DNA from: Acidobacteriaceae bacterium
GTDB taxonomy: Bacteria > Acidobacteriota > Terriglobia > Terriglobales > Acidobacteriaceae
Assembly (NCBI GenBank): GCA_030037705.1
Contig: JASHQE010000332.1
Coordinates: forward strand, 1 to 48,053
Length of the DNA stretch: 48,053 nt
Reading direction: 5' to 3'
The position numbers and the translations under genes are program-made. Of the stretch, positions 19,005 to 44,689 are shown in pieces. The notes beneath the pieces were generated by a model that ran no database searches, was not told where the DNA came from, and was given only the letters and a program-made list of their open reading frames with translations. Each line of letters starts with the position of its first letter. Position 1 is the first letter of the stretch.

Positions 19005-19769
19005 TCACGAAGCAGCCGGGCGGCCAAAAGGCCCGTCCAATTTTGTCGAATTCGTGCAACCATTGTCTTCGCGCGTTCCATGCGCGCCATTCTCGCTTTC
19101 GCCAGCGCCGAATGATAATCCTTTCAGGGCGTGCTCCCATATGGCCCGTTTTGTCTCCTCCATCGGCATGGGAGCAACCACCGTCATCTCTGCAAATGAG
19201 CTGAGATCCAGATACACCTGCCGGTTCTCGTAGAGAAACTCGAGCGGATACTCAGGCTTTCGTGTGCGAGCTTGCACAGGATCCGCATCCAGCAGATAAC
19301 GTATCCGGGGACGGGGAACGAATCGCAAAATGATCCATGCGTACGCGCGCATCATTGGATTCCGCAGCGAGAGGTTGGCGAGTTCGTCGTAAATATATCG
19401 ATCAAAGATGAGGATATCCGCCATGTAGGACCGCATCGCCCTAGCCACGACGCGCTGCACCGAAATCGCATCGAGGAAATATATGCACAACCGCACGCAG
19501 CTCATCGGCCATGAGCGGACGTTCTTGTCGCGCCGGTTGATTGGCGCTGCGGGCGATCCCACCCCCTTGTCACCGCCAAAGATCGCATGTCCGGCGCCCT
19601 CGCGAACCCCTGTCAAGACTGCTATCTCATTCCAGAAAGCGATCGTGCGGACCCGCAGACCCATCTCTTCCAACCGTGCGCGAAGAGCCGCAATCTGTGT
19701 GCTCTTTCCGGCACCATCCATACCCGAAAAGCTCACAAATAAGGTTTTGTTCTCTTTACCTCTACGCAT
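19005..19769 (-). CDS. Thymidylate-kinase-like P-loop kinase
   Basis: A 254-residue P-loop protein of the thymidylate kinase superfamily. Walker A is GMDGAGKST at residues 16-24 in the FVSFSGMDGAGKSTQI context, and IFDRYIYDELANL carries the DR(Y/F) substrate motif. The region between them and the long C-terminal tail (rich in Gly, Glu and Asn) are unlike housekeeping Tmk of about 210 residues. Such divergent kinases recur in polysaccharide loci, where the substrate is unknown. It follows the Ala/Pro-rich secreted protein by 25 bases, so it probably belongs to the flippase-STAS transcript. A role as the cell's main dTMP kinase is unlikely. Confidence 0.75.
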   Translation of the reverse strand: MRRGKENKTLFVSFSGMDGAGKSTQIAALRARLEEMGLRVRTIAFWNEIAVLTGVREGAGHAIFGGDKGVGSPAAPINRRDKNVRSWPMSCVRLCIYFLDAISVQRVVARAMRSYMADILIFDRYIYDELANLSLRNPMMRAYAWIILRFVPRPRIRYLLDADPVQARTRKPEYPLEFLYENRQVYLDLSSFAEMTVVAPMPMEETKRAIWEHALKGLSFGAGESENGAHGTREDNGCTNSTKLDGPFGRPAAS

Positions 19770-19794
19770 CGCTCCAATCCTTCACGACCGTTCT

Positions 19795-20265
19795 TCAGTG
19801 GGGCTGGCTTGGACTCGAGTGAGAAAGAGCCGCAACCGTACCGATTGCAACTCCAGCGCCGACAATCACGCCAATCTTGATCACAAGCGCGCGCACGCGC
19901 CGCTGTTTTGCGGGCGCAATCACGGCTCCGGCCGGTCTCGACGCCGTTACGCCCATCGTTTTCTCGCGAGGAGCGATCGCTGTGCCAACCGGTTTGGCCG
20001 CGCCATTCTGCGGTTCAGCGCTGTTCTGCGTATCCGTGGGCACCGCTGCTTGTTGAGAACTTTGCGGAACAGGCGCAGACGGGGTATTTGCATCTTTCGC
20101 CTGATCTCCCGCAGAAACGGTATTCGACGCTGGCTGCGAAGTTTCTGACTGGATGGATGGAGCGGCTTGTTGCTGCGCGCTTGCAGCCGCTGCCTCAAGC
20201 GGAATGGCCAAGAACAGGATCAGCCCGCTTGCGATCAGTCTTGTGACACCACTTGCGACTCTCAT
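19795..20265 (-). CDS. Exported Ala/Pro/Gln-rich protein of unknown function
   Basis: A 156-residue low-complexity protein: signal peptide (SGLILFLAIPLEAAAASA), a long disordered stretch rich in Ala, Gln, Ser and Pro, a basic patch KQRRVRALVIK, and a second hydrophobic helix IGVIVGAGVAIGTVAAL close to the C-terminus. It could be anchored in the inner membrane by that helix. GGAGAAAG directly ahead of ATG 20265 is the ribosome binding site; the frame stays open upstream to 20313 without one. It lies between the STAS and kinase genes on the same strand. No family is recognised. Confidence 0.6.
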   Translation of the reverse strand: MRVASGVTRLIASGLILFLAIPLEAAAASAQQQAAPSIQSETSQPASNTVSAGDQAKDANTPSAPVPQSSQQAAVPTDTQNSAEPQNGAAKPVGTAIAPREKTMGVTASRPAGAVIAPAKQRRVRALVIKIGVIVGAGVAIGTVAALSHSSPSQPH

Positions 20266-20351
20266 CTTTCTCCTCCGTGGAATCCGGCAACAGGATGGGC
20301 TCCCATACGGCATAGCGATTCATGGAAGCCCTTGATGAAGCACTCCAAGCA

Positions 20352-20807
20352 TCACGCCGCATTTTCCGCGTGTTGTTTTTTTTCTCCATACGCGGCATAT
20401 CCGTGCGCACGCTGAAAGCTGTCGGTGGCCTCCGCGGTCGTTTCAAAGATTTTGAATAGACGGTCGATCCCTAAAAGTCTGAGATTGACTCTTGTTCCCG
20501 GCCGGACCGCCGCAAGCCTTACGTCGCCATTGAGTTTCATGGCCTCTTCGAGGCAGCAGAGCAGCAGATGAACAGCTGATTTATCCATCTGCTGCGTCTG
20601 CGAGCAGTCGAGCACAATGCACGGCCGCGAGACCTTCAGGCTGCTCTCCAGTTCGCGAAGAAAGGCCCGCTCCTGTTCACGGCCGAAGACAGCCGGCAAT
20701 TGCTTTACCGTCACTGCGCGTCTTTGAAATGTCATCTCCCTGTCCTGTCCCAATGATTTGTATTTCAAATCCCTGTTCGTGCTAAGCAGCGCTCCTTCGC
20801 GCTTCAT
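20352..20807 (-). CDS. STAS-domain protein (anti-sigma-factor-antagonist-like)
   Basis: A 151-residue single STAS domain: FLRELESSLKVSRPCIVLDCS, then the loop QQMDKSAVHLLLCCLEEA, where Ser of DKSA is in the place phosphorylated in SpoIIAA-like proteins, and a final strand-helix LLGIDRLFKIFETTAEA. STAS proteins act as partner-switch regulators or bind lipids and nucleotides. The ATG at 20807 overlaps the stop of the flippase gene by four bases (ATGA), so both are translated together; an internal ATG at 20735 is possible. This coupling suggests that the STAS protein regulates or assembles with the glycan export machinery. No anti-sigma kinase is nearby. Confidence 0.78.
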   Translation of the reverse strand: MKREGALLSTNRDLKYKSLGQDREMTFQRRAVTVKQLPAVFGREQERAFLRELESSLKVSRPCIVLDCSQTQQMDKSAVHLLLCCLEEAMKLNGDVRLAAVRPGTRVNLRLLGIDRLFKIFETTAEATDSFQRAHGYAAYGEKKQHAENAA

Positions 20808-22804
20808 AGCGGCTCGGGTTGTTGTAAAAGACGCATCAACTCTGCTTCAGGATTGCGCAGTGCGTGCGCCATCACATTTTTTGCGTACCGGAAGAGCGTC
20901 CCAAGATTTGTGTCGTACCAGCAGCATTCCCGCATGTGCGGCGATATCCCGCAGACGAACTTGAGCTTTTTGATACACTGAGGAGACACAAGCATGGCAG
21001 CCATCAGCCTGTGGTTTCCATCGAGAACTGTAAGCGGCTCGCTCCCGTTGAGCCCGATCATAATTACGGCGCCACGCGCGCCGTGATCATGAAGAAGCTC
21101 ATCGCCAATCGAGTCAATCTTCGAAAGAAAGGGCGCATCCAGAATGTGGCTGTGCGTCTTCATCCGCACTGCGACTTGCGTAATTGAATAATTACCTCGC
21201 GCAAGTTTTCTCCATTGAGCACGCGGAAACACCCGGATACTTCCCAGTTCGTTCTCGTTCACTTCGACCTCGTACCACTCCGTTCCTGCGGGGATTTCCT
21301 TCCATAGAGAAAGATGGCGAAGGAAGAGCAGCGCGCGCCGCTTGGCGTTCTCGCCAACGTCATCGAAGTTCGGCGCGGCCACAATCTCCCGCATAGTCTG
21401 GTGATAATCCCGAAAGGCGGGACCATCGAAATCGCTTTTCAAGAACTCTGCAATCACCTCGTCTTCTGACAGGCGGCGAATCAACCGCACCGGCCGACAA
21501 GCACCGGGAAGCGGCAATTTTTTCGGATCGGTGAGCGAGTTAACCAAGAAGGGAAAGGCTACAAACACAAACAGCGCGATCATCAATACCAACTGCACTA
21601 CGATGACCTCGCGCAGGGATGAGTGGAAGCGGTAGATACCCGCAATCAACACTCCGCTAAAAGCTAATTGCACCCAGCTTGTATTTGCGATCTTATAGGA
21701 CATCTCAAAGGTGATGATGACCGCGCTGAGCGAATAAATAACAATGGCCAGCGCATATAACGCCAGTAGATAAGAGAGGTTGTATCTCCCCGCAATCTCA
21801 AAGCTGGAACCGAACAATTTCGTCCACACCCAGGAAGGCGCAACGCACAGCGCTAGAGCCAATCCGGCGCCGCTCGCTAATACCAGCAGCAGCGCGGTGG
21901 TGATGACCCTCAGGTCCCGTCTGTCTTCTTCACTGGTGCCCGCCACCAGTGGGAAAGTGGTATTTACTACCGCCGAAGTCATGGTGAAGATCACGCGACC
22001 CACCATCGCCACCGCCGCATAGAGCCCTGCTTTGTGCGCGGGGAAGAAATGATTGACCATTACGATGCCGCAATTGCCGATAAGCATCTGCCCCGCGTAA
22101 AAGACCCCCGCCTGCGAAGTTTCGCGGAAGGCGTCGGAAAAATCGAGAGGATTAGGTATGCGCGCAGCCAGCTTGGGCGCAATGGCGAGGTAGGCCGCGG
22201 CCGTGGCAGCTGCATTGGCTGCGATCACGCCGCGAACCCCGAAGCCGGCGAGGATCAGAAAGCATGACCCGCCCAGGCGAACCGCTCCTTCCAGAACAAG
22301 GTTAATCGCCAGTCCGCGAAAACCGTAGGTTCCCTGGATATAGCCCCGCCGCGGCCCGAGAGGCACATAGAACGCCGCGCCGATTGCAAGCAAGGCCACG
22401 AGAATTGAGTCAGGAAGATTGAGGTAATCCGCAATCGCACCGCGAAAGATGAGCAACGCAAGCCCAACAACCAGACCACATGCCCACGCGCTCCGGTGAA
22501 ATCCCCGATAAACTGCCGCTTTCCCTTCCGGAGTGCTCTGTTGCGCCACAACTTTGCTGGAAACAATTTGAAATGAAAGCGTGACTGCGGAGAGCAGTGT
22601 AAGAAGGGTGTATACAACCGTTGCCTGACCGAAGCCGCCGGTACCGAGATAGCGGGCGACAACGATGTTGTAGAGCAAGTTCGTGGCTATGGTCATGCCC
22701 GATCCTGAGAGCAGGACCATACTTCCGACAAGGATGCGAGCCGGCAGCGTTTTCGGTTTGTGGGTTACATCATGCACCACGCTTTGACGCTCCAAATTGA
22801 CCAT
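20804..22804 (-). CDS. Wzx-like flippase with C-terminal ParB/sulfiredoxin-like domain
   Basis: A 666-residue fusion. Residues 20 to about 435 form a multi-helix MATE/Wzx-type polysaccharide flippase: GMTIATNLLYNIVVARYLGT at the start, IVSSKVVAQ, then repeated helices up to LVLMIALFVFVAFPFLVNSL. The remaining 220 residues are soluble and cytoplasmic by position; they contain VIMIGLNGSEPLTVLDGNHR with Asp595-Gly-Asn-His-Arg599, the kind of D-G-x-H-R motif seen in ParB N-terminal and sulfiredoxin folds, and two Cys (ECCWYD). Flippases normally end with the membrane part. The gene leads a minus-strand transcript with the overlapping STAS gene. The flippase call is strong; the C-terminal fold is inference. 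Confidence 0.82.
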   Translation of the reverse strand: MVNLERQSVVHDVTHKPKTLPARILVGSMVLLSGSGMTIATNLLYNIVVARYLGTGGFGQATVVYTLLTLLSAVTLSFQIVSSKVVAQQSTPEGKAAVYRGFHRSAWACGLVVGLALLIFRGAIADYLNLPDSILVALLAIGAAFYVPLGPRRGYIQGTYGFRGLAINLVLEGAVRLGGSCFLILAGFGVRGVIAANAAATAAAYLAIAPKLAARIPNPLDFSDAFRETSQAGVFYAGQMLIGNCGIVMVNHFFPAHKAGLYAAVAMVGRVIFTMTSAVVNTTFPLVAGTSEEDRRDLRVITTALLLVLASGAGLALALCVAPSWVWTKLFGSSFEIAGRYNLSYLLALYALAIVIYSLSAVIITFEMSYKIANTSWVQLAFSGVLIAGIYRFHSSLREVIVVQLVLMIALFVFVAFPFLVNSLTDPKKLPLPGACRPVRLIRRLSEDEVIAEFLKSDFDGPAFRDYHQTMREIVAAPNFDDVGENAKRRALLFLRHLSLWKEIPAGTEWYEVEVNENELGSIRVFPRAQWRKLARGNYSITQVAVRMKTHSHILDAPFLSKIDSIGDELLHDHGARGAVIMIGLNGSEPLTVLDGNHRLMAAMLVSPQCIKKLKFVCGISPHMRECCWYDTNLGTLFRYAKNVMAHALRNPEAELMRLLQQPEPL

Positions 22805-22948
22805 CCATCATGAAATTCAAATCAAGCGTAGCGATTGCAGCCGATGGCAATTAATCCGATGCAAAAATGCACGTTCTGGCTGCTTCGAACGGTGGGCGCT
22901 GACCCCGTCCAACCCTGGTGATTGCTGGGTGCTTCTAACCTTTCAAGC

Positions 22949-23947
22949 ATGTTCAGGCACATAAGTTTTGCATTTTTGCTGTGTCTCTTTACCTCCCGTG
23001 GATGCTCCGGTCCTGGAGTTGGACCTGCGCCGCGCCTGCAGCACAGAGCTGCAGGCAATTCGCCGGAGATCATCGCCTTGTATGAGGCGTGGTTTGGGCA
23101 CCCCAAACACATCTCCGTGGGCTATTCTTCGCAGGATCCCGCCGAGCTCAACAACCAGATCCACCACGCACAAGCGATGGGAATCTCGGCGTTCGTCGTC
23201 GATTGGTACGGTGACCGCGAACCTTTCATCGATCGCAGTTACGCTCTGATGCAGCAGGCGGCGCAAAAAAATCACTTCCACGTGGCCATGATGTATGACG
23301 AAACCAGCGATGACGAAGATGCAACGGACGAAGCGATAGCCGATTTCACTATGTTTCACGACACATATCTTGCTGCTCATGCTCCTGGACATCAGGCTTA
23401 TCTCACCTATGAAGGCCGGCCCGTGATTTTTATCTTCCCCAAGGGAGGGCATACCGACTGGCCCAAGGTGCGCGCATTGGTGGATCAGTGGAAGCCGGCG
23501 CCATTACTGATCCAGGAAAATCTGCCAGGAGCGGATGCAAGCGCATTTGACGGATTCTACGCGTGGGTGGATCCGGCACAAGGCGGCAACGGCAGCAACT
23601 GGGGCGAACAATATCTGAGCAACTTCTACGAAACGCTGAAGACCAAATTTCCTGACAAGATCATCGTCGGTGGGGCTTGGGCGCAGTTCGATGACAGCAA
23701 AGCATCGTGGGGGCTTAACCGTCACATCGCTGCGCGCTGCGGCCAGACTTTTCAGGATACTTTCAATTTCTGGCGCAGCGAGTTCTCCCCTGACGATCCA
23801 ATACCGTTCATCATGATTGAGACGTGGAATGACTACGAAGAAGGAACGGCAATTGAGCGGGGAATTCCAACGTGCGGCTCCGGTTCCCAAGAAAATCCGC
23901 TGACGCTGCGCGCTGCAGCATCTTCCACCCCGTCGGCCAAGCCTTGA
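22949..23947 (+). CDS. GH99/GH71-like glycoside hydrolase (WbsX-like), exported
   Basis: A 332-residue exported protein. After a hydrophobic leader (ISFAFLLCLFTS, with a Cys at RGC that might be lipidated) the barrel shows IIALYEAWFGHP, HHAQAMGISAFVVDWYG, HFHVAMMYDE, and near the end IETWNDYEEGTAIERGI. The W293-N-D-Y-E-E-G-T block equals the W-N-E-W-E-G-T end of GH99 endo-mannosidases, whose two Glu residues act in catalysis; Glu297 and Glu298 are the matching candidates. It would trim or cleave a glycan in the periplasm. ATG 22949 fits the leader best. It stands between two minus-strand glycan operons and is divergent from the flippase gene. Confidence 0.77.
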   Translation: MFRHISFAFLLCLFTSRGCSGPGVGPAPRLQHRAAGNSPEIIALYEAWFGHPKHISVGYSSQDPAELNNQIHHAQAMGISAFVVDWYGDREPFIDRSYALMQQAAQKNHFHVAMMYDETSDDEDATDEAIADFTMFHDTYLAAHAPGHQAYLTYEGRPVIFIFPKGGHTDWPKVRALVDQWKPAPLLIQENLPGADASAFDGFYAWVDPAQGGNGSNWGEQYLSNFYETLKTKFPDKIIVGGAWAQFDDSKASWGLNRHIAARCGQTFQDTFNFWRSEFSPDDPIPFIMIETWNDYEEGTAIERGIPTCGSGSQENPLTLRAAASSTPSAKP

Positions 23948-24009
23948 ATTTTCCCATACTTTCTTCTCGCAAAGCCATCCCCTGCAGGTTTGCAGATAAA
24001 ACGGCTCCG

Positions 24010-25086
24010 CTATGCCGCCTGCGTCACTTCGCGGTCAGAGTAGGCTTCGGCTGGAACTGCAAAGCTGCCGTTTTGCACCGCAATCATACCCACTTGCGTC
24101 GCAATCTGGATCTGTGAGCGATGAACGCTGCTGATCAGTGACAATGGCCGGTTGCGCACTTCATCGTAAACCCGTCCGATATATTCGCCCAGCACGCCAA
24201 GGGATAGCAGCAAAAGGCTTCCCACAAAAAATACCGCTGCCGTTACGCCGAATGCAGCGGCAGTAACAGGATTCTTTGTAAAGAGAATGGATAAAACCAT
24301 TAGCACCGCAACTGTACTCGAAAACCCAAAGAGACCGAAGCTAAGCCGCAATGGCTTGTAGCTGAAACTCGCAATCGCATCCATCGCATACTTGATCCGG
24401 CTAATGAAAGAAAGCTTGCCATCGCCGCCTGCGCGATCTTGGCGGTCGTAATATATGATCGCGTTCCGGTAACCAACCCACGCGCGCAGTCCAGGCAAAT
24501 AGCGGTTCTTTTCACCCAAGGCCATCACAGAATCGACAACCTTGCGATCCATGAGACTGAAAATTCCCGCATTGAGAGGAATTGGATAGTCAGAAAGCGC
24601 GCCAAGCACGCGATAAAAAAGAGGGAAAAGCTTGGCTAGAACCTTCCGGCTCTCTTGCCGGCTCCGCCGCACACCAACAACAACCTCGGCTCCATCGCGC
24701 CATGCTTCGATGAGTGCCGGCAGCACCTCAGGCGGATCCTGAAAATCACCATCCATCAAAATCACCGCGCGGCCACACGCAATACTGAGCCCGGCCGAGA
24801 TCGCTCCCATGTGGCCCCAGTTGCGGGATAGCTCCACCACGACGACATGAGGATCGACCTGCTGCAAGCCTTTTAATAACTCGAGCGAAGAGTCCGTCGA
24901 ACCATCGTTTACATAAACGACTTCCCATTCGTTCACAACGTCCTTCAACGCACTGGCAACAGCTTCGTGAAATCGAATGATAAGCTCTTCCTCGTTGAAG
25001 ATGGGGACAACTACCGAAACCATAATGTCAGCTCCTGAAATTAAGCTTGGGTCTATCTCTCTCTCAGATTCGTTTTTGTCAGTCAT
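24010..25086 (-). CDS. GtrB/DPM-like family 2 glycosyltransferase
   Basis: A 358-residue membrane-bound GT2 enzyme that should transfer a sugar from a nucleotide donor to undecaprenyl phosphate on the cytoplasmic face. Seen: SVVVPIFNEEELI, VVYVNDGSTDSS, SRNWGHMGAISAGL, the metal site MDGDFQDPPE (Asp112, Asp114), GVRRSRQES, NAGIFSLMDRKV, and two C-terminal helices (SSTVAVLMVLSILFT and VFFVGSLLLLSLGVLGEYIG) that define the GtrB/YkcC type. The start is ATG 25086 (MTDKNE) or ATG 25113. It is the last gene of a five-gene minus-strand operon headed by a GT-C-like protein, the natural acceptor-side partner for a lipid-linked sugar. Confidence 0.87.
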   Translation of the reverse strand: MTDKNESEREIDPSLISGADIMVSVVVPIFNEEELIIRFHEAVASALKDVVNEWEVVYVNDGSTDSSLELLKGLQQVDPHVVVVELSRNWGHMGAISAGLSIACGRAVILMDGDFQDPPEVLPALIEAWRDGAEVVVGVRRSRQESRKVLAKLFPLFYRVLGALSDYPIPLNAGIFSLMDRKVVDSVMALGEKNRYLPGLRAWVGYRNAIIYYDRQDRAGGDGKLSFISRIKYAMDAIASFSYKPLRLSFGLFGFSSTVAVLMVLSILFTKNPVTAAAFGVTAAVFFVGSLLLLSLGVLGEYIGRVYDEVRNRPLSLISSVHRSQIQIATQVGMIAVQNGSFAVPAEAYSDREVTQAA

Positions 25087-25129
25087 CCTGTGTGCTTCTT
25101 TTGTCCTTTCCATCAAATTTTTAGCACCG

Positions 25130-25633
25130 TTACTCCGCTTCCGCCTGCAGGACCCGCACCTTCCAACGCAGTTCGGCCGGAGTAAGAACCACAAGATAGC
25201 GCATGTGGACCCGCTGCATACCTTGAGATTTGTCATGATCGAGGAGCTGCACATCGTAATCCACCGTATCGGTGAGTTCGATCGACAAACCTTCGGGTGA
25301 ATAAAAGACAATCTGCACGTCGTGCGCCCGGTCTTCATAATGTGTGCGGATTCCCAGCCTGGATTGCTCCTGGATTGCTGCCATGAGCTTATCTTTGGCA
25401 TCTCCTACAAAATCCGCGTCCAGAAGATCTGCTCGATTGCCATCGAGAGCTGCGTTCAAACTCTGCCAGGATTCGATATAGTCGCGAATGGCTGCTTTTG
25501 CAGTCTGGTCCGCAAGAGGCCGCGGGCCCTGGAAGCTTGCCGGCTCCACGTGCACAGTCGCCTGAGCGGCTGCCGCCCCTGTGGCCGAGCCTAATACTGC
25601 GCAGAGGATCAGAATCGATTTCAACGTTGTCAT
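25130..25633 (-). CDS. Secreted NTF2-like protein of unknown function
   Basis: A 167-residue exported protein: signal peptide SILILCAVLGSATGAAAAQA, then a compact domain with helix AIRDYIESWQSLNAALDG, followed by FVGDAKDKLMAAIQEQ and several strands ending LRWKVRVLQAEAE. The pattern resembles NTF2-like/IMS-type folds but no family is certain. Its ATG overlaps the stop of the preceding gene by four bases, with GGGAG ahead as ribosome binding site, so it is coupled to that gene. FVGD also occurs in the 375-residue secreted protein two genes upstream (EFVGDLMGYYP), which hints at related domains. Confidence 0.66.
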   Translation of the reverse strand: MTTLKSILILCAVLGSATGAAAAQATVHVEPASFQGPRPLADQTAKAAIRDYIESWQSLNAALDGNRADLLDADFVGDAKDKLMAAIQEQSRLGIRTHYEDRAHDVQIVFYSPEGLSIELTDTVDYDVQLLDHDKSQGMQRVHMRYLVVLTPAELRWKVRVLQAEAE

Positions 25634-26490
25634 TTCTCCCACCGAATCTGGTTCCCTAATATCACTCCGCTTGCGACAGTGATGGTCGCGTCCGCGTGCG
25701 CCGGCATCTCCACCTGTGCGATGCCCCGCTTGAGCGGAACGTCTACGGTTGACTGCGCTCCGTTGTAAGCCTCGGTGAACGTAACGATCGTTCCATCCGG
25801 TACTGCATTCCCGCTGCAGTCGCGCACCGGATCCGTCTGCAGTTGAATCTGCCGGCCCGCCGGTTTGGCACTCATCTTCAGCCCACACGGATCGCCCGGG
25901 ACCTGGCCGATAATGCGGGTGCTGGAGATTGCGCCGCTGCTTGCGACAAACTTGTCTGTGCCTTGTTTGGCGGTCGAGTCCATCACTGTCCATGCAGCGC
26001 CATTGTGCGTGACGACGGTGCTCGATTGTGTCTCACTGGAGGGACTCGTCAACCGAAACTCGATCGGCATGGATACGGGGATCAAGTTCTTGTACGCGTC
26101 GAAAAGAAACACAGCTCCGGTGATCCCGTCATGGAGCCCTACGGCCAATCGTGACGGCCGAGCCAGAAAACTGAGATCAGCGGGTTGGCTTACAGGCACT
26201 ACATCAAAGGCGCCGCTCGCGGCTGAACCATTGCCGGCGAGAAAGACCGCATAATGGCCGGCATTGTAGAGTGTGCCTGCTGGGAACCATGTTGTCTCTC
26301 CTAACTGCACATCGCGCTTGAGTACCTGCCCGAGACCCGCGATATACAGCGTGCCCTTCCCCGTTCCTGTGCTTTGTATAGAAAAGGCTGCTCCGGCTTC
26401 AACCTTCGCTGGCAACATCAGTTCGCTGCTCTGCGCGCAGACCGGAGCAGCTACGCCAATCATCAGCAGGAATGCCGCCACAGCTCTCAC
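25630..26490 (-). CDS. Secreted beta-rich (Ig-like) protein of unknown function
   Basis: A 286-residue exported protein with signal peptide MRAVAAFLLMIGVAAPVCAQ. The mature chain is rich in beta strands and Gly/Thr/Val, with patterns typical of Ig-like or bacterial big domains: LPAKVEAGAAFSIQSTGTG, ITGAVFLFDAYKNLIPVSMP, GTIVTFTEAYNG and a final ITVASGVILGNQIRW. It could bind glycan or form part of an envelope assembly. Both ends overlap neighbours by four bases (ATGA), so it is translated as part of a coupled series between two NTF2-like secreted proteins. No specific family is recognised. Confidence 0.67.
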   Translation of the reverse strand: MRAVAAFLLMIGVAAPVCAQSSELMLPAKVEAGAAFSIQSTGTGKGTLYIAGLGQVLKRDVQLGETTWFPAGTLYNAGHYAVFLAGNGSAASGAFDVVPVSQPADLSFLARPSRLAVGLHDGITGAVFLFDAYKNLIPVSMPIEFRLTSPSSETQSSTVVTHNGAAWTVMDSTAKQGTDKFVASSGAISSTRIIGQVPGDPCGLKMSAKPAGRQIQLQTDPVRDCSGNAVPDGTIVTFTEAYNGAQSTVDVPLKRGIAQVEMPAHADATITVASGVILGNQIRWEK

Positions 26491-29428: not shown

Positions 29429-29641
29429 GTCATTCGAATGAACTGCCGGGTAAAAATAAAATCCGAAATTTTACACTCTTATCCGTTCGATTAAGAAATG
29501 TACCAATGTGGTTGCTTTGTATCAGCTCATGGACGCCCTTTCCGTTTACATGAATGCATCCGATGCGAAAGGCATTTCATGTAGCCAACATCCGGGCTGG
29601 TTTGGGAATCAAATTGCTCATTGCCGATTTCGAGGGCCCTG

Positions 29642-33856: not shown

Positions 33857-33868
33857 GGTTAGACTGCA

Positions 33869-35266: not shown

Positions 35267-35523
35267 TGTGATGGATAAGAACAAAAAGCACCCGTGGAGC
35301 ATCCATCCTTTAGCTCTTCTTCATCCAACTAAATGCTCTGTTCCCGGGTTATGGTTTGACGGCTAATGGACACGAAGTCAGACACAAGCCAATCTGTTCC
35401 CTCAGATTCGTAATGGCATGGAATGATTGGACCCGCTGAGCGGCATATTTTAATTGTCTAGTCCATTTGCCCGCGCACGGCGCGGACGAACGTGCTTGCA
35501 TCAGCAGCACGAAGGAGGATGCT

Positions 35524-38001
35524 TTGCTACGTACGCGTGTGAGCAGATTCCTGCCCTTGCTTTTCTTTTCGAGTGCTGTTGCTCCCTCACTTCTTCTGCC
35601 GATCGCCGGATGCGGCGCACCTCATTTAAATATCGAAACTGCTTCGCCGCAGGTCTCGATTGCAGCGAATCCCGCTTCGATCAAGGCGGGCGCCTCGTCT
35701 CTGTTGACGGTCACTGCGAGTAATGCCGCGCAAGTTACAGTAACCGGAACGGATGGCAGCACCTATAAGCTGAGCATAACCGGAGGAACGCAGGCAGTCA
35801 GTCCGGCAGCAACCACCACTTACACCGCCACGGCGACAGGAGCCAGCACGAGTGCGACCGCCACGGTATTAGTCACAGTAACGGCAAATCCTGCGCCTAC
35901 CGTGACCATTTCTGCCAACCCTTCGTCTATCGCGGCAGGCGGATCGTCCACATTGACTGTCAGTGCCGTCAACGCGACTCAAGTCATTATTACTGGCAGC
36001 GACGGCAGCAGTTACACCATGCCGCAACCTAATGGCGGCACGATATCCGTGAGCCCCTCCGCTACGACAAGCTATACCGCTACGGCAACCGGACCGGGCA
36101 GCACAGTCTCCGCCAGTGCAACTGTCACCATCATAGCGAATCCTGCTCCTACCATAACGCTTGTGGCAAATCCGACGACGATTGCATCCGGGAACTCATC
36201 TACCTTGACGGCGACTGCGAGCTACGCAACACAGGTCTCCATCACAGGAACGGACGGCAGTTCATACAATCTTTCATCCACAGGTGGGAATCAGTCGGTA
36301 AGCCCGACCGCGACTACCACGTATACGGCAACGGCTACCGGAACCGGGGGCAGCACAACCGCAAGCGCCACCGTGACCGTTATGCCGCCAGGCAATGTTC
36401 AGTCCATCGATCACGTCATCTTCATGCTGCAAGAGAACCACACTTTTGACAACTACTTTGGGATGCTCAATCCTTACCGGGAAACGAATGGTTGGAATAT
36501 CGGTGACGATGGCAATACATACAACGTAGATGGGATTGACGATAAGCTAAACACGATCAGCAATGAGGACGATCAAGGTACATCCTATTCGCTCTTCAAA
36601 TTCACCAGTACCTGCGTTGATGATATGAGCTCGGCTTGGCTGGCGAGTTACGGTGACGTCAATCGCTATGACTTCCTCACTACGCGGCCCATCAACATGG
36701 ATGGCTTTGTCCATAACGCCGAAGGTTACGCAATTAGCTGCTCCGCCCCTGATGCAGGCGGAACTTGCGCAGGCAGCTTTACCGATACAACCGGCCAGCG
36801 CTCGATGGGTTACTACGACCAGGGATTTCTCAACTATTACTACTATATGGCGTCGCAGTTCGCGATCTCCGATCGCTGGTTCTCGCCTGTGGCGAGCAAG
36901 AGCATTGATAATCGGATCGCCACGTTCACGGGAGGCACGACCCAAGGTCTGGTTAACGACCCTGGCAGTGACGACAATCTCGGCCAGCTCAATATACCAA
37001 CTATCTTTCAGGAGCTCGATCAGGCGAATGTCTCCTGGAAGATTTATTACACGGTCACTCAGGGTTATTGTCTCGAAGAGGATGATTGTCCAGGTTCCGC
37101 AAACGACAAGTATCCGGCCACGGACTTCTCAAGCCTGACTTACTCTTATCAATATCTTTATGAAAATCCTTCCGGCGCGGCCTGCACACCGCCTACACAA
37201 CCTTCTAGCGTGGTCGGCGACTCGACTAACTCGTTCTGCATTGATCCGAATCATATCGCGCCGCTCTCGCAGTATTACACCGACCTAACGAACGGCACAT
37301 TACCGAGCTTTGCCTTTATCGAAGCTGGATATGGCAACAATGATGAGCATCCAGGTTCAGGCCAGTCAATTCTCGAGGGCCAGGCGGAAGTGGCTAACGT
37401 CGTGAATGCGTTTATGGCAAGCCCGGAGTGGTCCGACTCAGTATTCTTCTTAAGCTATGACGAAGGCGGTGGGCCGTATGACCATGTTCCCCCTGTGCCC
37501 GGCTCCTCTAACGCCAACACCGATGCGTCGCTTGGAGCGATTCCCGATATCTCGTCAATCGCTGTCAATCCTGATAGCTATAATCCGTGTGTGCCTCCTG
37601 GAGGAACACCCACCACGCATTGCGATTTGAGCTCGACCGACCCTGGAGCCAATCCAGGCGATGCGGCGGCCGTTAATGGCTTCGCGGCTCAGCTTGGCTT
37701 CCGCTTACCTAATATCGTCATCTCACCGTTCACTCGCAAACACTATGTCTCGCACATACCGATGGATCACACCGCTGTCATCAAGTTTGTCGAGAATCGT
37801 TTTATCGGCAGCTCGGCGCATTTGACCGCCCGCGATGCAGCGCAACCCAACCTGCTGGACTTCTTCGATTTCACGAGCATCCCGTGGGCCACGCCGCCTA
37901 CGCCGCCAGCTCCCGTAACAGCGCAATCCCTGGGTTACGATCCGTGCACACCTGCCAGTTTTGCACCTGCGGTAGCTCAGCGAAAGCTGCAGTTCTTTTA
38001 A
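35524..38001 (+). CDS. Lipoprotein phosphoesterase (phospholipase C/acid phosphatase family) with Ig-like repeats
   Basis: An 825-residue lipoprotein. The leader RFLPLLFFSSAVAPSLLLP ends in the lipobox IAGC. Three Ig-like repeats of about 83 residues follow, then a PF04185 phosphoesterase domain: IDHVIFMLQENHTFDNYFG, the internal RWFSPVASKSIDNR, FLSYDEGGGPYDHVPP and FTRKHYVSHIPMDHT, which carry the metal and phosphoenzyme positions. The family includes phospholipase C and the acid phosphatase AcpA; the substrate is not predictable. TTG 35524 is the start: AAGGAGG lies five bases ahead and the lipoprotein signal begins there. It follows the GT4 gene after 257 bases without an obvious promoter. 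Confidence 0.86.
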   Translation: MLRTRVSRFLPLLFFSSAVAPSLLLPIAGCGAPHLNIETASPQVSIAANPASIKAGASSLLTVTASNAAQVTVTGTDGSTYKLSITGGTQAVSPAATTTYTATATGASTSATATVLVTVTANPAPTVTISANPSSIAAGGSSTLTVSAVNATQVIITGSDGSSYTMPQPNGGTISVSPSATTSYTATATGPGSTVSASATVTIIANPAPTITLVANPTTIASGNSSTLTATASYATQVSITGTDGSSYNLSSTGGNQSVSPTATTTYTATATGTGGSTTASATVTVMPPGNVQSIDHVIFMLQENHTFDNYFGMLNPYRETNGWNIGDDGNTYNVDGIDDKLNTISNEDDQGTSYSLFKFTSTCVDDMSSAWLASYGDVNRYDFLTTRPINMDGFVHNAEGYAISCSAPDAGGTCAGSFTDTTGQRSMGYYDQGFLNYYYYMASQFAISDRWFSPVASKSIDNRIATFTGGTTQGLVNDPGSDDNLGQLNIPTIFQELDQANVSWKIYYTVTQGYCLEEDDCPGSANDKYPATDFSSLTYSYQYLYENPSGAACTPPTQPSSVVGDSTNSFCIDPNHIAPLSQYYTDLTNGTLPSFAFIEAGYGNNDEHPGSGQSILEGQAEVANVVNAFMASPEWSDSVFFLSYDEGGGPYDHVPPVPGSSNANTDASLGAIPDISSIAVNPDSYNPCVPPGGTPTTHCDLSSTDPGANPGDAAAVNGFAAQLGFRLPNIVISPFTRKHYVSHIPMDHTAVIKFVENRFIGSSAHLTARDAAQPNLLDFFDFTSIPWATPPTPPAPVTAQSLGYDPCTPASFAPAVAQRKLQFF
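35653..36384 (+). repeat. Three tandem Ig-like repeats inside the phosphoesterase gene
   Basis: Units start at about 35653, 35902 and 36154 and are 83-84 codons long (the last shorter). Each has the frame ANP-(S/T)-I-x-(A/S)-G-x-S-S-x-LT, then TG-(T/S)-DGS-(S/T)-Y, and SP-x-AT-T-(T/S)-YTATATG. They are low in charge and rich in Thr, Ser and Ala, like surface stalk domains. The high similarity of the units suggests recent duplication. Confidence 0.85.
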
Positions 38002-38169
38002 AGAACAATTCGACATGGCGGGATTTTCGCGTCTACTCGATTTGCCCGTTCCACATCAGGCTGCACGCAGTGCGGGTTGCCCAACTCTCAAGGCTCGACC
38101 CGGCGTGCACAACAAGAGTGCGGCTCATCATTCTTTCGCGCGATCTTTCGGATACGCAGGTTTAAGCAA

Positions 38170-39042
38170 TTAGTCCGGCGCAATCTGACTGGCTATGTAG
38201 CGCAGGCCGTCATATTCGGCCTTTACACTCACATGCTCCCCCAGATGAAGATCCTCACTGGACGGCATACGAGCGGCGCCAAAAGAGATCTGATAGCTCC
38301 GTTGGTCTCGTGGATCGATCAAGACCAATGAGCCTGCGTGCAGATCGAGCGAAGAGATATTCCCGCTGAATGCAAAGGCCGCGCCAGGAACGGCAAGCAC
38401 TGTGATCTTGTCAGCCATACCTCGGCCGCCCTGGCCTGACTCAAACTCCACAGCAACCAGCGACCCCTTCCGCAGATCCCACGGACCAGAACGCACCGAT
38501 GCAAAAGCAGGCTGCCCCTCTCGCACGAATGAAGCTTCCCTGGCCACCTGCACTGTGAAGGGCTCGAGCGAAGCCGAGGAGGCAACGGTCAATGCGCCGC
38601 TGCCTGGATCGTAGCTCACCACTCGCCCTTCGTAGTCGCCTTCAGGAGCACGCGACAGCGTATGAATGCTGACGGCGAAGATATTGGTCCCATCCAGCGT
38701 CGTTTCAATCGAGGCATGATCTTCAGGACGCAATCCGCGTAGCGGAATACGCTTGCCATCTAAATAGACGAGGGTTCGCTCATCGAACAAGATCTTCATT
38801 GGCTTCTCGCCGTATACCTTCAGAACCAATTCGTCACGCACTGGATCGATGCTTCGAATTTCACCCCCGAAGATCGTGCTTTTCCCGGCTGGCGCGGGCG
38901 GCAGGTCGGCAGAAGCAGGCGCCGATTCGCCCGTCTTCAAAACCGAAGTTGGACTGCTGAGCTGTTCCTGTTGCGCTTGCGCCGCAGAGAGCTGCATAAG
39001 CGCCACACTGGCTACAATAATCGCCACAATAATTCGTTCCAT
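38170..39042 (-). CDS. Secreted DUF5666-like (OB-fold) protein
   Basis: A 290-residue exported protein: signal peptide MERIIVAIIVASVALMQLSA with AQAQ cleavage, a short polar linker, then repeated beta modules. Three modules each combine a G-x-(I/V)-x-S-(I/L/Y)-D core with strands for example FGGEIRSIDPVRDELVLKVY, YEGRVVSYDPGSGALTVASS and FSGNISSLDLHAGSLVLIDP. This is the small OB-fold pattern seen in DUF5666. Such domains may bind metal or sugars; the role is unknown. It faces the phosphoesterase gene tail to tail and is divergent from the TPR gene across a 166-base gap. Confidence 0.7.
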   Translation of the reverse strand: MERIIVAIIVASVALMQLSAAQAQQEQLSSPTSVLKTGESAPASADLPPAPAGKSTIFGGEIRSIDPVRDELVLKVYGEKPMKILFDERTLVYLDGKRIPLRGLRPEDHASIETTLDGTNIFAVSIHTLSRAPEGDYEGRVVSYDPGSGALTVASSASLEPFTVQVAREASFVREGQPAFASVRSGPWDLRKGSLVAVEFESGQGGRGMADKITVLAVPGAAFAFSGNISSLDLHAGSLVLIDPRDQRSYQISFGAARMPSSEDLHLGEHVSVKAEYDGLRYIASQIAPD

Positions 39043-39208
39043 ATCGGCTTTTACCCTGGTTTGCGACGTTTAGACAATTATTTTGATGAAGCAAGCTGTG
39101 TTCCGGTGGCCTGGGAGACCGAGGAGACAACATAGCCCTATCGCTCGCATCTAATTTGTTGTGAACCCACATGTGGTCTCTCTGCGAAGTGGAACCTCTG
39201 AGAACACG

Positions 39209-40390
39209 ATGATCAGCACATCGGCCAAATTTATGGCGGTCATAGTGGTCGTCGCGGCATCGGCGTTCCCATTGGCCTGGGCGCGGGACACTGTCACGAT
39301 CGATCTCCCGCGGCACAGTCAACTCAGCCCTGTGCAACGCTTGAATCGCGAGGGCGTCGAGGCTATCAACAAGCACCAATATGAAAAAGCGGAGGCGATC
39401 TTTTTAAAGGCATACCTCTACGACCCTTCAGATCCGTTCACACTGAATAATCTTGGCTATATCTCGGAGTTGGAAGGCCAGTTAGACCGGGCGCGCAAGT
39501 TTTATCAGCTAGCAGCGGAGCAGGGTTGCAATGCCGCCATTGATCTGAGCAGTGTAAAAGACCTTCAAGGTAAACCGATGAAGGTGGCTCTCGAAAATAT
39601 CGGTAATCTTCCCATGCGGGTGAATCGGATGAATATCGATGCGATGCGGCTTCTTTCGGAAGATCGGGGTTTTGAAGCCATAGCGGTTCTCGAGCAGGCA
39701 CTTGCTTTTGATCCGCAGAATCCGTTCACGCTGAATAATCTCGGTGTCGCGAATGAAACTGTTGGCGATGAGTGGAATGCTTTGAAGTATTACCGCGAAG
39801 CGGCTGATGCGCACTCGAAGGAGCCTATCGTTGTCACGGAAAATCGTTCTTGGCGAGGCCGTTCCGTAAGCGAGATGGCGGCAGCCAGTGCCAAGCGTGT
39901 GGAAAGTGCGATGCAGCAGGCCAATTCGAATGACGTGCGGGCGCGCATGTTTAACTTGCGTGGTGTGTACGCAGAAAATCAAAACAACTGGGCTGCGGCG
40001 AAACAGGATTTTCTGAACGCTTACTCGCTCGATCCCGCCAATCCGTTCTCCATCAACAATCGGGGATATGTCGCGGAGAGAGATGGAGATCTGGAATCCG
40101 CGAAATTCTTTTACGAAAAGGCGCGCAGGGCCAGCGACGCAAGTGCGCAAGTCGGACTGGCAACGGATATCTCTGCGCAGGGAAAAACTATCTCTACTGT
40201 CGCCGCAGAAAGCGATCATAAAGTTGATGGAGCACTCAACAAATACAGTTGGGAACGTCACGGACAACCTGGCCCAATTGAACTCACGCCTCGCGGCGCT
40301 GCATCAGGAGAGGAAAATCCCGCACCGTCGCAACAACCTTCAACTCCGGATACAGAAAAGGCTCCCCCGGCGCCGCGGTCGCCTCGTTGA
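39209..40390 (+). CDS. Exported TPR protein with a repeated PFTLNNLG motif
   Basis: A 393-residue exported protein. A signal peptide (FMAVIVVVAASAFPLAWA) precedes three TPR pairs, each with a strongly conserved turn: DPSDPFTLNNLGYISELEGQ, DPQNPFTLNNLGVANETVGD and DPANPFSINNRGYVAERDGD. The C-terminal 40 residues are Pro-rich and probably disordered. It is likely a periplasmic scaffold for the neighbouring glycan machinery. ATG 39209 is taken; the upstream in-frame ATG-less extension to 39161 has no support. The nucleotidyltransferase gene begins 22 bases later. Confidence 0.78.
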   Translation: MISTSAKFMAVIVVVAASAFPLAWARDTVTIDLPRHSQLSPVQRLNREGVEAINKHQYEKAEAIFLKAYLYDPSDPFTLNNLGYISELEGQLDRARKFYQLAAEQGCNAAIDLSSVKDLQGKPMKVALENIGNLPMRVNRMNIDAMRLLSEDRGFEAIAVLEQALAFDPQNPFTLNNLGVANETVGDEWNALKYYREAADAHSKEPIVVTENRSWRGRSVSEMAAASAKRVESAMQQANSNDVRARMFNLRGVYAENQNNWAAAKQDFLNAYSLDPANPFSINNRGYVAERDGDLESAKFFYEKARRASDASAQVGLATDISAQGKTISTVAAESDHKVDGALNKYSWERHGQPGPIELTPRGAASGEENPAPSQQPSTPDTEKAPPAPRSPR

Positions 40391-40412
40391 CTCCGATCAA
40401 GGGCCCTTATAT

Positions 40413-41537
40413 ATGAGTAAACCAAAAATGCAAATTGCTTCAAACAATTCAAACAAGTTGATGTCTTTTCTTTCGCGTCTGCTGTTGCCTTCGGAAATCC
40501 AACTTCTTTATGCTTCGGCGGCTGCTGCAGAGTTAAGGCAGGAACTTCTGAGCCTGAACCACGATGACTTCGACGAGCTCGTCGTTCTTGCCGGCTCGAA
40601 TCATGTGGTTATACGCGGCCTGGAAGTTTGGCTCTACTTATTACGCGAAGAGCAAAGCGTGCCGCACCGCGAATGGGGAATGCAGGCTCTTGAGGCCGAG
40701 CAGAGGCGCATCGCTCATGCGGTCAGGTTTCTCCATGAGATTTGCGCCGCTTTTGCAGAGCTCGGATATCGCGCGGCCGTTATTAAGTCGCTTGACCATT
40801 GGCCCGATCTTGGCAGCGATCTCGACCTTTACACCGATGCGAAGCCCCAGGAGATATGCGCATTCATGAAGACACGCTTCAAGGCGCGGATTGCGCCGAG
40901 GAGCTGGGGTGATCGCCTTGCGTCGAAATGGAATTTTCTTGTGCCCGGTCTACCTGAGGCGGTCGAAATTCACATGGGGCGCCTTGGACAGACGGGCGAG
41001 CAGGTTGCAATCGCCGCCACGCTCCTCGAGCGCACGCGGCGTATCACAACCCATGGTTATTCGTTCGATGTTCCATCGTTCTCTGATCGGTTGATGATCT
41101 CGACGTTGCAGCGCATGTATCGCCATTTCTATTTCCGGTTATGCGACATCGTGGACTCAGCCGCGCTTGCGGATCGCGGTCATATTGACTATGACAACTT
41201 GCGCGCCCTGGCCTCTCTTGCCGGTATCTGGGAGGGTGTGGCAACTTATCTGGTCATCGTATCGGATTACGCAAAGAACTATCGCGGCTCGGGGCTCGAT
41301 CTGCCAAGCTTCGTCGTCAACGCGGCACGGTTTGGCGGCGATCTTATTTACTACGGCAAGGGCTTTCTGCGGGTCCCAATTCTGCCTCAATCCGCGCGTC
41401 TCTATGGATCGCAGTTCGCGGGCATGCTGGGAAAAGGCGAATTGCACAACACCGTTCGGCTCAGCCTTCTGCCTTGGCTTGCCACAGCAGCCGTGATCGG
41501 GCAAAAGCTTACCGGAAGCGATAAGGGGATTTGGTAA
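40413..41537 (+). CDS. Nucleotidyltransferase-fold protein (PF14907-like)
   Basis: A 374-residue cytoplasmic protein. An N-terminal helical region (LMSFLSRLLLPSEIQLLYAS) precedes a nucleotidyltransferase core: AFAELGYRAAVIKSLDHWP, then DLGSDLDLYTD with the D-x-D metal pair and the following Asp candidate, and a helical C-terminal half (MISTLQRMYRHFYFRLCDIV). The layout matches the uncharacterised NTP_transf_5 group, which often occurs in polysaccharide loci. The exact reaction is unknown. It is 22 bases after the TPR gene and ahead of a TonB gene, so co-transcription with the former is likely. Confidence 0.72.
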   Translation: MSKPKMQIASNNSNKLMSFLSRLLLPSEIQLLYASAAAAELRQELLSLNHDDFDELVVLAGSNHVVIRGLEVWLYLLREEQSVPHREWGMQALEAEQRRIAHAVRFLHEICAAFAELGYRAAVIKSLDHWPDLGSDLDLYTDAKPQEICAFMKTRFKARIAPRSWGDRLASKWNFLVPGLPEAVEIHMGRLGQTGEQVAIAATLLERTRRITTHGYSFDVPSFSDRLMISTLQRMYRHFYFRLCDIVDSAALADRGHIDYDNLRALASLAGIWEGVATYLVIVSDYAKNYRGSGLDLPSFVVNAARFGGDLIYYGKGFLRVPILPQSARLYGSQFAGMLGKGELHNTVRLSLLPWLATAAVIGQKLTGSDKGIW

Positions 41538-41639
41538 AGTCGCGGCACAAGCTCCGCGCACTGGATTTGAGAAAAGTATCGATGGCCTAACTTACAGAAA
41601 AGGGGGCGCCGGGCAGTTCGATTTTCCGGCCAAAAATTT

Positions 41640-42680
41640 ATGCGTAACGTGCTATCGGGAACTCGCAATACGGGAACGCGCGCAAAGTGGTCGGCTGAAG
41701 CGGAGCAAACGGGGCCTGCCGATCGTGAGGCGTATAACCGGTCATCGCTCGCCATGGATGCCTTTGAAGATCAGGCCTCTGCCTGGCCGCAGCATATGCC
41801 CCATCTGATCTCACGGCGCTACGCGATGGCGGGCGGAGCACCTGGCGCGTTAGGGTGGAAGGGATTCCAACCGGTTTCATTTAAACGTGACCGCAAGTCC
41901 AGCTTTGTTTCTTTCATCATTCACGTTCTCATTGTCACGCTGGTTTTGTGGTGGAGTTTGACAAGCCACCCTCACGTTGTGGAAACCGCGAACACGGTTG
42001 TGACGCCGATGCACTTTACCCTTTACGCTCCTCCGCCGCCTCCACAGGTAATGCCGGTTGCCAAAGTGCAGGGCGGCGGTGGTGGCGGAGGCGCGCATCA
42101 GTTGATTGAGCCCACGCGCGGACATGTGCCCAAGGTTGCGCGCATCCAGACTCTGCCCCCACAGATTGTCAGGGTCGCCAATCCGAAGCTTGCTGTTGAA
42201 CCGACGATGCAGGTCCATATCCCTTCGAGCAACCCTCTTCCCAATTTTGGAGTGTCTCAGTCACCGCAGATTGCTCTTGCTTCGCAAGGCAGCGGCAGCG
42301 GTTCCAGATTCGGGCACGGTCTTGGCGGTGGCATCGGCGCCAGCCAGGGTAGTGGAGCGGGCACGGGTAATGGTGGAGGTTACGGCGGAGGCCTGATGAG
42401 CGTGGGCGGAGGCGTAAGCGCGCCTATCCTTATCCATTCCGTCGAGCCGGAGTTTACCGATCAGGCCCGGCAGGCGAATTACACCGGCACCGTCTCCATT
42501 CAGCTCATCGTCGACTCGCAAGGTAATCCGCAGGATGCCCACGTGGTGCGCCATCTCGGTATGGGACTCGATGAAAAAGCCGTCGAGGCAGTGAATCAGT
42601 ATAGATTCAGGCCGGCTGTCTATCAGGGGCATCCCGTTGCCGTGCAGATGATTGTTGAGGTTGATTTCCGCCTGCACTAA
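41640..42680 (+). CDS. TonB-family energy transducer
   Basis: A 346-residue TonB-like protein. One membrane helix, SFVSFIIHVLIVTLVLWW, lies at about residues 88-105 after an unusually long cytoplasmic N-terminal region. A periplasmic linker rich in Pro and then Gly (a run of glycines follows VAKVQ) leads to a C-terminal TonB domain: ILIHSVEPEFTDQARQANYT, GTVSIQLIVDSQGNPQDAHV, GLDEKAVEAVNQYRFRPA and VEVDFRLH. It passes proton-motive energy from ExbBD to outer-membrane receptors. The start could also be ATG 41754, which would shorten the N-terminal region. No exbBD genes are beside it. Confidence 0.86.
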   Translation: MRNVLSGTRNTGTRAKWSAEAEQTGPADREAYNRSSLAMDAFEDQASAWPQHMPHLISRRYAMAGGAPGALGWKGFQPVSFKRDRKSSFVSFIIHVLIVTLVLWWSLTSHPHVVETANTVVTPMHFTLYAPPPPPQVMPVAKVQGGGGGGGAHQLIEPTRGHVPKVARIQTLPPQIVRVANPKLAVEPTMQVHIPSSNPLPNFGVSQSPQIALASQGSGSGSRFGHGLGGGIGASQGSGAGTGNGGGYGGGLMSVGGGVSAPILIHSVEPEFTDQARQANYTGTVSIQLIVDSQGNPQDAHVVRHLGMGLDEKAVEAVNQYRFRPAVYQGHPVAVQMIVEVDFRLH

Positions 42681-44254: not shown

Positions 44255-44689
44255 ATGGCTACATTTCAGACCTTTGCTGCTCCGGGCTATCAGTTCGAGG
44301 CGACTCCGGACCTTAGCCGGCTGGAGACACGCGAGCGCCTCAGCCAATCCGCGGTCGACGGGCTGTTTAGCATTGCCGAGCAGTGGCGTCTTTCCATCGA
44401 TAAAATCGGAGAACTGCTCGGCGGTGTGCCGCGTTCGAGCCTCTACAAGCTCAAAACAGCGGCGGGAACCTTGCGCGTGGACGAGTTGACCCGGATCTCC
44501 TATCTCGTAGGCATCTATAAGGCTTTACATATCCTGTTGCCCGACGAACTGGCGGACCAATGGATGACCCGGCCCAATGACAATCTGCTCTTCGGTGGCC
44601 AGCCTCCGCTCGATTACGCCATCCGGGCTGGCATTCCTGGCTTACAGCAGATTCGAAGCTTGCTCGATGCGGCGCGGGGTGGTCGTTAA
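44255..44689 (+). CDS. Xre/MbcA/ParS-type antitoxin
   Basis: A 144-residue DNA-binding antitoxin of the RES-Xre module. An N-terminal leader is followed by a helix-turn-helix (LFSIAEQWRLSIDKIGELLG and PRSSLYKLK) and the C-terminal MbcA/ParS/Xre toxin-binding domain (LTRISYLVGIYKALHILLPD, WMTRPNDNLLFGGQPPLDYA). It would neutralise the downstream toxin and repress the operon through the inverted repeat at 44191-44226. AGAGGG eight bases before the ATG is the ribosome binding site. Its TAA directly abuts the toxin's TTG start with no gap. Confidence 0.86.
   Translation: MATFQTFAAPGYQFEATPDLSRLETRERLSQSAVDGLFSIAEQWRLSIDKIGELLGGVPRSSLYKLKTAAGTLRVDELTRISYLVGIYKALHILLPDELADQWMTRPNDNLLFGGQPPLDYAIRAGIPGLQQIRSLLDAARGGR

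Follow-up and report, generated by a model that had tools for sequence, protein, structure and literature searches.

Several genes with likely roles in the assembly of surface glycans lie close together in a 48,053-nt stretch of DNA from an Acidobacteriaceae bacterium (the window; GenBank assembly GCA_030037705.1, contig JASHQE010000332.1), and the question they raise is whether they form a single system or are merely neighbours. The source genome is a 5.1-Mb draft, 85 percent complete, in which the window lies on the contig designated C90. The genes, between nt 19005 and 42680, include those for a Wzx-like flippase, glycosyltransferases, a secreted glycoside hydrolase and a protein with tetratricopeptide repeats (TPR) and an outer-membrane beta-barrel. 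The evidence given below indicates a real and coherent locus whose role is very probably at the cell surface and most likely involves a glycan. Judged from sequence alone, the probability that the module both makes and exports a surface glycan is put at roughly 0.6. No description of such a module was found in titles or abstract openings of the open-access literature searched.

Conservation and gene order

Open reading frames (ORFs) of the window were listed mechanically, and selected ORFs were scanned against Pfam and NCBIfam; every gene named in a first-pass annotation, which had been made from the sequence alone, was present where it had been placed. When a profile of the GT-C-like membrane protein was run against GTDB genomes, 141 relatives were confirmed, the best 80 of which were examined with up to 10 kb of flanking sequence each. 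Gene frequencies refer to the 43 of these 80 loci that exceed 21 kb, and genes at the far ends of the module are undercounted in them because of the 10-kb limit. The GT-C gene, the TPR-barrel gene and the gene for secreted partner 1 are found in all 43, secreted partners 2 and 3 and the hydrolase in 42 each, the flippase in 39 and the GT4 glycosyltransferase in 34; the remaining members are less frequent (Table 1), and the gene at nt 17853–18905 occurs in five. As the control genes of the window (GatA, RES, Xre and GH42) are present in 0/80 module loci, conservation of the module is confirmed to be far above chance. The relatives that share these genes carry the labels Acidobacteriaceae, Acidobacteria, Acidobacteriales, Terriglobia, Ca. 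Sulfotelmatobacter or genera of that group. One module locus (L101) comes from a metagenome bin labelled Rhodanobacteraceae, which is probably mislabelled or contaminated.

The genes are also held in a strict local order. The GT-C and TPR-barrel genes are divergent and adjacent in 76/77 loci, and the GT-C gene is followed by the three secreted genes in a fixed order in all 70 loci that have all four. In loci of the corresponding orientation, GT4 adjoins the TPR-barrel gene (49/49), STAS adjoins the flippase (35/35), and the small protein gene adjoins both STAS (35/35) and the kinase (36/36), while the DUF5666-like and TPR protein genes are neighbours wherever both occur (22/22 loci). Order is rigid inside these sub-blocks and rearranged between them, with 39 loci showing order A and 14 showing order B. 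A second sample was chosen by the flippase and comprises 20 relatives, 18 with a fused and two with a split flippase gene; other module genes were nearby in 19/20. The sets labelled A1 and A2 represent 15 and 18 of these 20 loci, and A3 and A4 represent 53/65 and 39/48 candidate rows.

The synteny check across relatives thus shows the genes named by the first-pass annotation to be conserved together, as one unit, with the exception of TonB. The TonB_C domain is real (61.7 bits versus a cut-off of 24.6), although its gene accompanies the module in 3/43 loci and was rejected as a member, as was the VWA protein gene just outside the interval (7/43). Three genes that had been passed over are frequent: those for the phosphoesterase, the DUF5666-like protein and the small protein.

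Co-occurrence and taxonomic range

Among 120 genomes of one family, presumably the Acidobacteriaceae, the five genes used as markers were carried by 59 (flippase), 60 (GT-C), 59 (barrel), 66 (the Tmk-like kinase) and 60 (nucleotidyltransferase). With all matches counted, pairwise phi values are 0.76–0.95, and the five markers occur together in 55 genomes and are all lacking in 50. After removal of weak or partial Tmk matches (G017, G019, G058, G063, G064, G066, G079, G086 and G088) and the weak GT-C match of G079, phi rises to 0.87–0.97, with all five markers in 54 genomes, none in 57 and a partial set in nine. This filtering involved judgement, as the match of G017 (9.7e-8, an internal stretch) was taken out while the contig-end fragments of G118 (1.6e-8) and G094 (6.5e-8) were left in; the unfiltered count is given alongside. 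Shared ancestry inflates the phi values of both counts. The nucleotidyltransferase gives phi values of 0.92–0.95 with the other four module genes (weak matches removed), and co-occurs with them even at megabase distance (G032). The gene at nt 17853–18905 is found in 110/120 genomes, i.e. in 57/59 flippase carriers and 53/61 non-carriers, with a phi of 0.18 to the flippase; it serves as a weak control, since paralogues are among its matches, 8/80 loci have it close to the module, and 10/12 of its best matches are in flippase carriers.

Flippase carriers and non-carriers are mixed in nine GTDB genera (g1, g9, g12, g14, g28, g29, g40, g46 and g58), and within these the markers mostly switch together, with partial sets in G012, G058 and G086. 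Completeness is at least 96 percent in 6/10 of the non-carriers of mixed genera. From this pattern, the module genes appear to have been gained or lost together on more than one occasion. The module seems confined to one family: the C-terminal domain of the flippase was found outside it in 1/396 genomes of the phylum, as a remote lone protein (7/8 matching genomes belong to the family), and the 14/299 genomes of the class that have the GT-C gene are all inside it. Cultured carriers are Acidipila rosea, Terriglobus albidus, Occallatibacter savannae, KBS 83 and KBS 89. In G003 only the GT-C and barrel markers are present, on a 12.5-kb contig that ends inside GT2. The locus of G045 (L144) is a remnant that keeps the genes for the Tmk-like kinase, the STAS protein, the small protein, the phosphoesterase, the TPR protein and the nucleotidyltransferase but has no flippase, GT-C or barrel; upstream are genes that look phage-like and transposase-like by inspection.

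These data bear on the possibility that at least two distinct pathways merely lie side by side here, for example a GtrB/GT-C system for glycosylation of proteins or lipopolysaccharide beside a flippase/kinase unit that, together with an export pore, works independently. The rearranged order between loci would fit such an arrangement, as would the partial gene set of G045, the drafts in which kinase and flippase are on different contigs (e.g. G010, G059), and the flippase of G041, which lies apart from the rest of the module. Separate pathways are nevertheless unlikely, as the five markers are either all present or all absent in 111/120 genomes with weak matches removed (105/120 on all matches), and the TPR-barrel gene adjoins the GT-C gene in 76 of the 77 loci.

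Flippase, kinase and glycosyltransferase genes

Assignment of the flippase rests on PF01943, which is matched by 15/19 aligned proteins (best 2.7e-12), the window protein itself being unmatched. The flippase and its extra domain are encoded as a full-length fusion in 39 genomes and as two adjacent genes on the same strand in 18, two more matches being fragments, and this fused or adjacent coding points to a joint function of the two parts. For the extra C-terminal domain (about 230 residues), no known family was matched credibly in Pfam or PDB profile searches, and profiles of the flippase, GT-C and barrel proteins likewise gave no credible PDB sequence match. A ParB/sulfiredoxin-like identity, raised by a G-N-H-R motif in the domain and by a single DndB match (E 0.16) in 1/19 flippase proteins, was not supported by the Pfam and PDB searches or by hhalign, which against 19 ParB domains gave a probability of 0.4 percent, though the motif was in register. 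Lone copies of the domain, each with an N-terminal extension, occur in G011 and G004 (L183:8586–9560 and L184:8560–9579), where they adjoin a gene that by inspection is EPSP-synthase-like.

Row counts of the consensus motifs pool the 20 and 80 loci of the two samples, seven of the 20 recurring among the 80, so that some loci are counted twice. The STAS protein is well matched (44.3 bits versus a cut-off of 22.6), and the position of the phospho-serine, which we take to be the usual one of STAS regulators, is not conserved (51 rows); a classical role like that of an anti-sigma antagonist is therefore not indicated. The Tmk-like kinase exceeds the cut-off of PF02223 (35.9 versus 27 bits), with the P-loop alone as the best-matching stretch, and its consensus (53 rows) retains RKPEYP, which presumably departs from thymidylate kinase, as well as the P-loop and a DRY motif. 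The putative nucleotidyltransferase keeps GsDlDLy in its consensus (24 rows) and scores 26.2 bits with PF14907, where the cut-off is 31.2.

The candidate GT-C protein was so assigned from weak PF10131 matches in 12/16 proteins (best 8.4e-5), again with the window protein unmatched; a paralogue reaches 24.8 bits, the cut-off being 26.4. None of the three secreted partners matches a Pfam family above cut-off. The nearest models of the GT2 protein are NF047588 (PgfS, 241.7 bits) and PRK10714 (ArnC, 156.9 bits), both scores lying below the NCBIfam cut-offs; it has two C-terminal hydrophobic stretches and the consensus MDGDfQDPP (50 rows), which we take to be the motif of polyprenyl-phosphate glycosyltransferases. 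An ArnC/PgfS-type GT2 is thus present in the window, in agreement with the GtrB-type enzyme first proposed, but is not a constant member of the module. The hydrolase, putatively periplasmic and almost always within the cluster, has the consensus motif TWNDyEEg (75 rows) and scores above the GH71 cut-off (PF03659, 36.9 versus 34 bits) and below that of GH99 (PF16317, 22.2 versus 33).

A paralogue of the GT-C protein is fused to a GT4 domain in G040 (L185:9284–12289, + strand; 1002 residues), with a Wza gene (PF02563) some 3 kb away and Wzc-like and polymerase-like genes nearby. Its location links both the GT-C family and GT4 with the assembly of polysaccharides.

Outer-membrane exit and components sought elsewhere

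The structural model of the barrel has 16 strands (predicted local distance difference test, pLDDT, 86), and a fold search against the PDB gave the exporters PelB and PgaA as top matches, level with the porin CymA, in support of the resemblance to PelB, PgaA and BcsC that had been suggested. The TPR region scores 28 bits with TPR_Slam (cut-off 35.2), the Pfam scan gave no match to a Slam barrel, and the cut-off of TIGR02917 (PrsT of the XrtA/PEP-CTERM system) was not reached (195.3 versus 312.2 bits).

The locus had been described as lacking Wza, Wzc and a processive synthase, and for the latter two this stands. With one acidobacterial Wzc-like protein as the query, no Wzc was found in the 80 loci or in the window, though such a search could miss distant relatives. 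The only GT2 of the locus is ArnC/PgfS-like, with 54 bits against a PgaC/IcaA model whose cut-off is 422.3, so that no processive synthase was found there. Wza is lacking from the locus but not from the genome: PF02563 (Wza-type OPX) has no match on C90 and six elsewhere, and in the 80 loci no Wza was found by similarity to the one from L185, which again could miss distant relatives. PF02397, the initiating phosphoglycosyltransferase, similarly has no match on C90 and seven elsewhere in the genome of the window. As for Wzy, nothing matched the two polymerase-like proteins of L185, which have no Pfam match of their own, and the GT-C-like protein could do its job. Among 218 otherwise unassigned ORFs of the 80 loci, none resembled the L185 Wza, the Wzc-like protein or the two polymerase-like proteins, a comparison with one or two examples of each that could overlook distant relatives. 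General Pfam scans of the module proteins turned up no PilZ- or PelD-type receptor of cyclic di-GMP, for which no dedicated search was made.

A Wzx/Wzy pathway might accordingly use an unlinked Wza, with the TPR-barrel as an accessory. The six PF02563 matches in the genome would allow this, and a precedent exists in the composite OPX/beta-barrel translocons of Myxococcus, as described in the available part of one report (PMC9601211). It is quite unlikely here, since the barrel is joined to a TPR domain of its own, a feature of synthase-dependent systems, and the 80 loci contain no homologue of the one acidobacterial Wza and Wzc. Moreover, PF02563 matches number 3–8 in ten carriers of the module and 4–6 in four non-carriers, so that the numbers link none of the copies with the module.

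Export of a protein through the barrel in the manner of Slam, for instance of recurrent Ig-like secreted proteins or of glycosylated surface proteins, with the glycan genes serving to glycosylate that protein, is decidedly unlikely. It would accommodate the TPR_Slam match below cut-off, the resemblance of GT2 to PgfS (part of a protein-glycosylation system according to the available portion of PMC5856776) and a secreted protein family, one member of which matches Big_7 (Ig-like), that recurs in 24/80 module loci (e.g. L114:14010–15275). However, a search of the window with the Big_7 member gave no relative at E 1e-3, the 16-stranded barrel has PelB and PgaA among its top matches, and a flippase with a secreted glycosidase suits a glycan substrate better.

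Proposed mechanism and comparison with known systems

From the conservation and architecture of the module, which the data show, we infer its substrate, the order of steps and export. Assembly and export of a surface glycan would combine a Wzx-type assembly line with an exit of the PelB/PgaA type. The kinase and nucleotidyltransferase may activate or modify a building block in the cytosol, and GT4, together with an initiating enzyme encoded elsewhere, would build a polyprenyl-linked oligosaccharide. This would be flipped by the Wzx-like part of the fusion, a step that the extra domain may control or couple together with the STAS protein. In the periplasm, the GT-C-like protein and its three secreted partners would polymerise or decorate the glycan, GT2 supplying a polyprenyl-phosphate sugar for this step in many species, and the hydrolase would trim the product, which the TPR-barrel would carry across the outer membrane.

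Like PelB, PgaA and BcsC, the exit protein of the module combines TPR repeats with a C-terminal outer-membrane barrel of 16 strands, and as in those systems a secreted hydrolase is encoded nearby, whereas a Wzx-like flippase and a GT-C-like protein are found in place of a processive synthase, and the three secreted partners have no Pfam family above cut-off. With the Wzx/Wzy pathway it shares a PF01943 flippase and GT4, and the GT-C/GT4 fusion paralogue of L185 lies close to Wza; it differs in that no initiating enzyme, Wza or Wzc was found in the module locus, nor a recognised Wzy, and in that the flippase carries or is paired with the extra domain. As in GtrB/ArnC/PgfS systems with a GT-C protein, a GT2 of the polyprenyl-phosphate type is near a polytopic GT-C-like protein, but here GT2 is not constant and the GT-C gene is accompanied by three secreted partners and an outer-membrane porin. 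The EpsX/EpsY translocon of Myxococcus also couples a flippase-type pathway to an outer-membrane barrel, which according to the available text has 18 strands and a separate OPX protein (PMC9601211), unlike the 16-stranded barrel of the module with its own TPR domain and no OPX gene found in the locus. Since tested defining features of the Wzx/Wzy and synthase-dependent systems are lacking, the module is best regarded as a variant that is a member of neither. It may tentatively be seen as a distinct logic of assembly and export, so far known from one acidobacterial family and predicted from sequence, in which a flippase with a control domain, a GT-C polymerase in complex with three periplasmic proteins and a TPR-porin exit operate without Wza, Wzc or a processive synthase.

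Several observations weigh against assembly and export of a glycan by this module. The cyclodextrin porin CymA ties with PelB and PgaA among the barrel matches. The GT-C and nucleotidyltransferase assignments are both below Pfam cut-offs. GT2 was not found in 17/43 loci, although it could lie elsewhere in those genomes, and the full-length flippase fusion of G041 (L043) has no other module gene within about 9 kb, the GT-C, barrel and kinase genes of that genome being on other contigs. Both PF02563 and PF02397 are present in 14/14 genomes tested (ten carriers, four non-carriers), so that a Wza encoded elsewhere could serve the module in trans. Simple vertical inheritance could also produce the distance correlations between module genes (r 0.53–0.96).

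Exopolysaccharides are known products of this group of Acidobacteria, and the module is a concrete candidate for the source of such a surface polymer. Cellulose is given as the product of the only acidobacterial exopolysaccharide locus dissected, as far as the available part of the source goes (PMC9693552), and sugar analyses of Granulicella polymers, in the portion available, name no genes (PMC5259719). As the module is present in cultured strains, its link to a polymer is testable. If the proposed scheme is correct, a flippase route would be joined to a synthase-type exit, i.e. a flippase-type pathway could use a TPR porin like PelB or PgaA, which bears on the evolution of polysaccharide exit routes.

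Layout of the locus and neighbouring genes

Table 1. Genes of the module in the window, with supporting matches and frequency among the 43 loci longer than 21 kb.
Feature	Position (nt)	Strand	Matches and frequency
Thymidylate-kinase-like P-loop kinase (Tmk-like)	19005–19769	-	PF02223, 35.9 bits; 29/43
Small conserved protein, C-terminal hydrophobic stretch	19795–20313	-	No Pfam family above cut-off; 29/43
STAS-domain protein	20352–20807	-	PF01740, 1.6e-11; 4-base overlap with flippase gene; 29/43
Wzx-like flippase (residues 1 to ~425) fused to extra domain (~428–666)	20804–22804	-	PF01943 in 15/19 proteins; 39/43
Secreted GH71/GH99-like glycoside hydrolase	22922–23947	+	PF03659, 36.9 bits; 42/43
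GT2, ArnC/GtrB/PgfS type (putative polyprenyl-phosphate sugar synthase)	24010–25113	-	26/43
Secreted partner 3 of GT-C operon	25130–25642	-	42/43
Secreted partner 2 of GT-C operon	25630–26490	-	Ends overlap both neighbours; 42/43
Secreted partner 1, N-terminal hydrophobic stretch	26487–27614	-	4-base overlaps on both sides; 43/43
GT-C-like polytopic membrane protein, candidate polymerase/periplasmic glycosyltransferase	27611–29428	-	Weak PF10131; query gene, 43/43
TPR repeats and C-terminal 16-stranded outer-membrane beta-barrel	29621–33856	+	43/43
GT4 glycosyltransferase	33869–35266	+	PF13692, 4.5e-19; 34/43
PF04185 phosphoesterase, frequent associate	35467–38001	+	8.9e-61; 26/43
Weakly DUF5666-like secreted protein	38170–39042	-	17.8 bits, cut-off 27; 24/43
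TPR protein, N-terminal hydrophobic stretch	39161–40390	+	TPR_2, 1.3e-17; 18/43 (undercount, 10-kb flank)
PF14907-like nucleotidyltransferase, GsDlDLy motif	40413–41537	+	26.2 bits, cut-off 31.2; 17/43; 60/120 genomes

Two of the listed ORFs are over-extended. That of GT2 (nt 24010–25401) likely starts at 25113, and that of secreted partner 3 (nt 25130–25993) at about 25642 or 25633. The four genes of the GT-C operon lie on one strand with overlapping ends (27611–29428, 26487–27614, 25630–26490 and 25130–25642), as do the flippase and STAS genes (20804–20807), which suggests translational coupling in both groups.

Beside the module is a likely toxin-antitoxin pair (nt 44255–45385), formed by an antitoxin gene of the Xre/MbcA-ParS type and, after it, the gene for a RES-domain toxin. 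Elsewhere in the window (nt 9896–12111) are the ethanolamine ammonia-lyase genes eutB and eutC (PF06751, PF05985), which adjoin glucokinase and glucosamine/phosphogluconolactonase-type genes.

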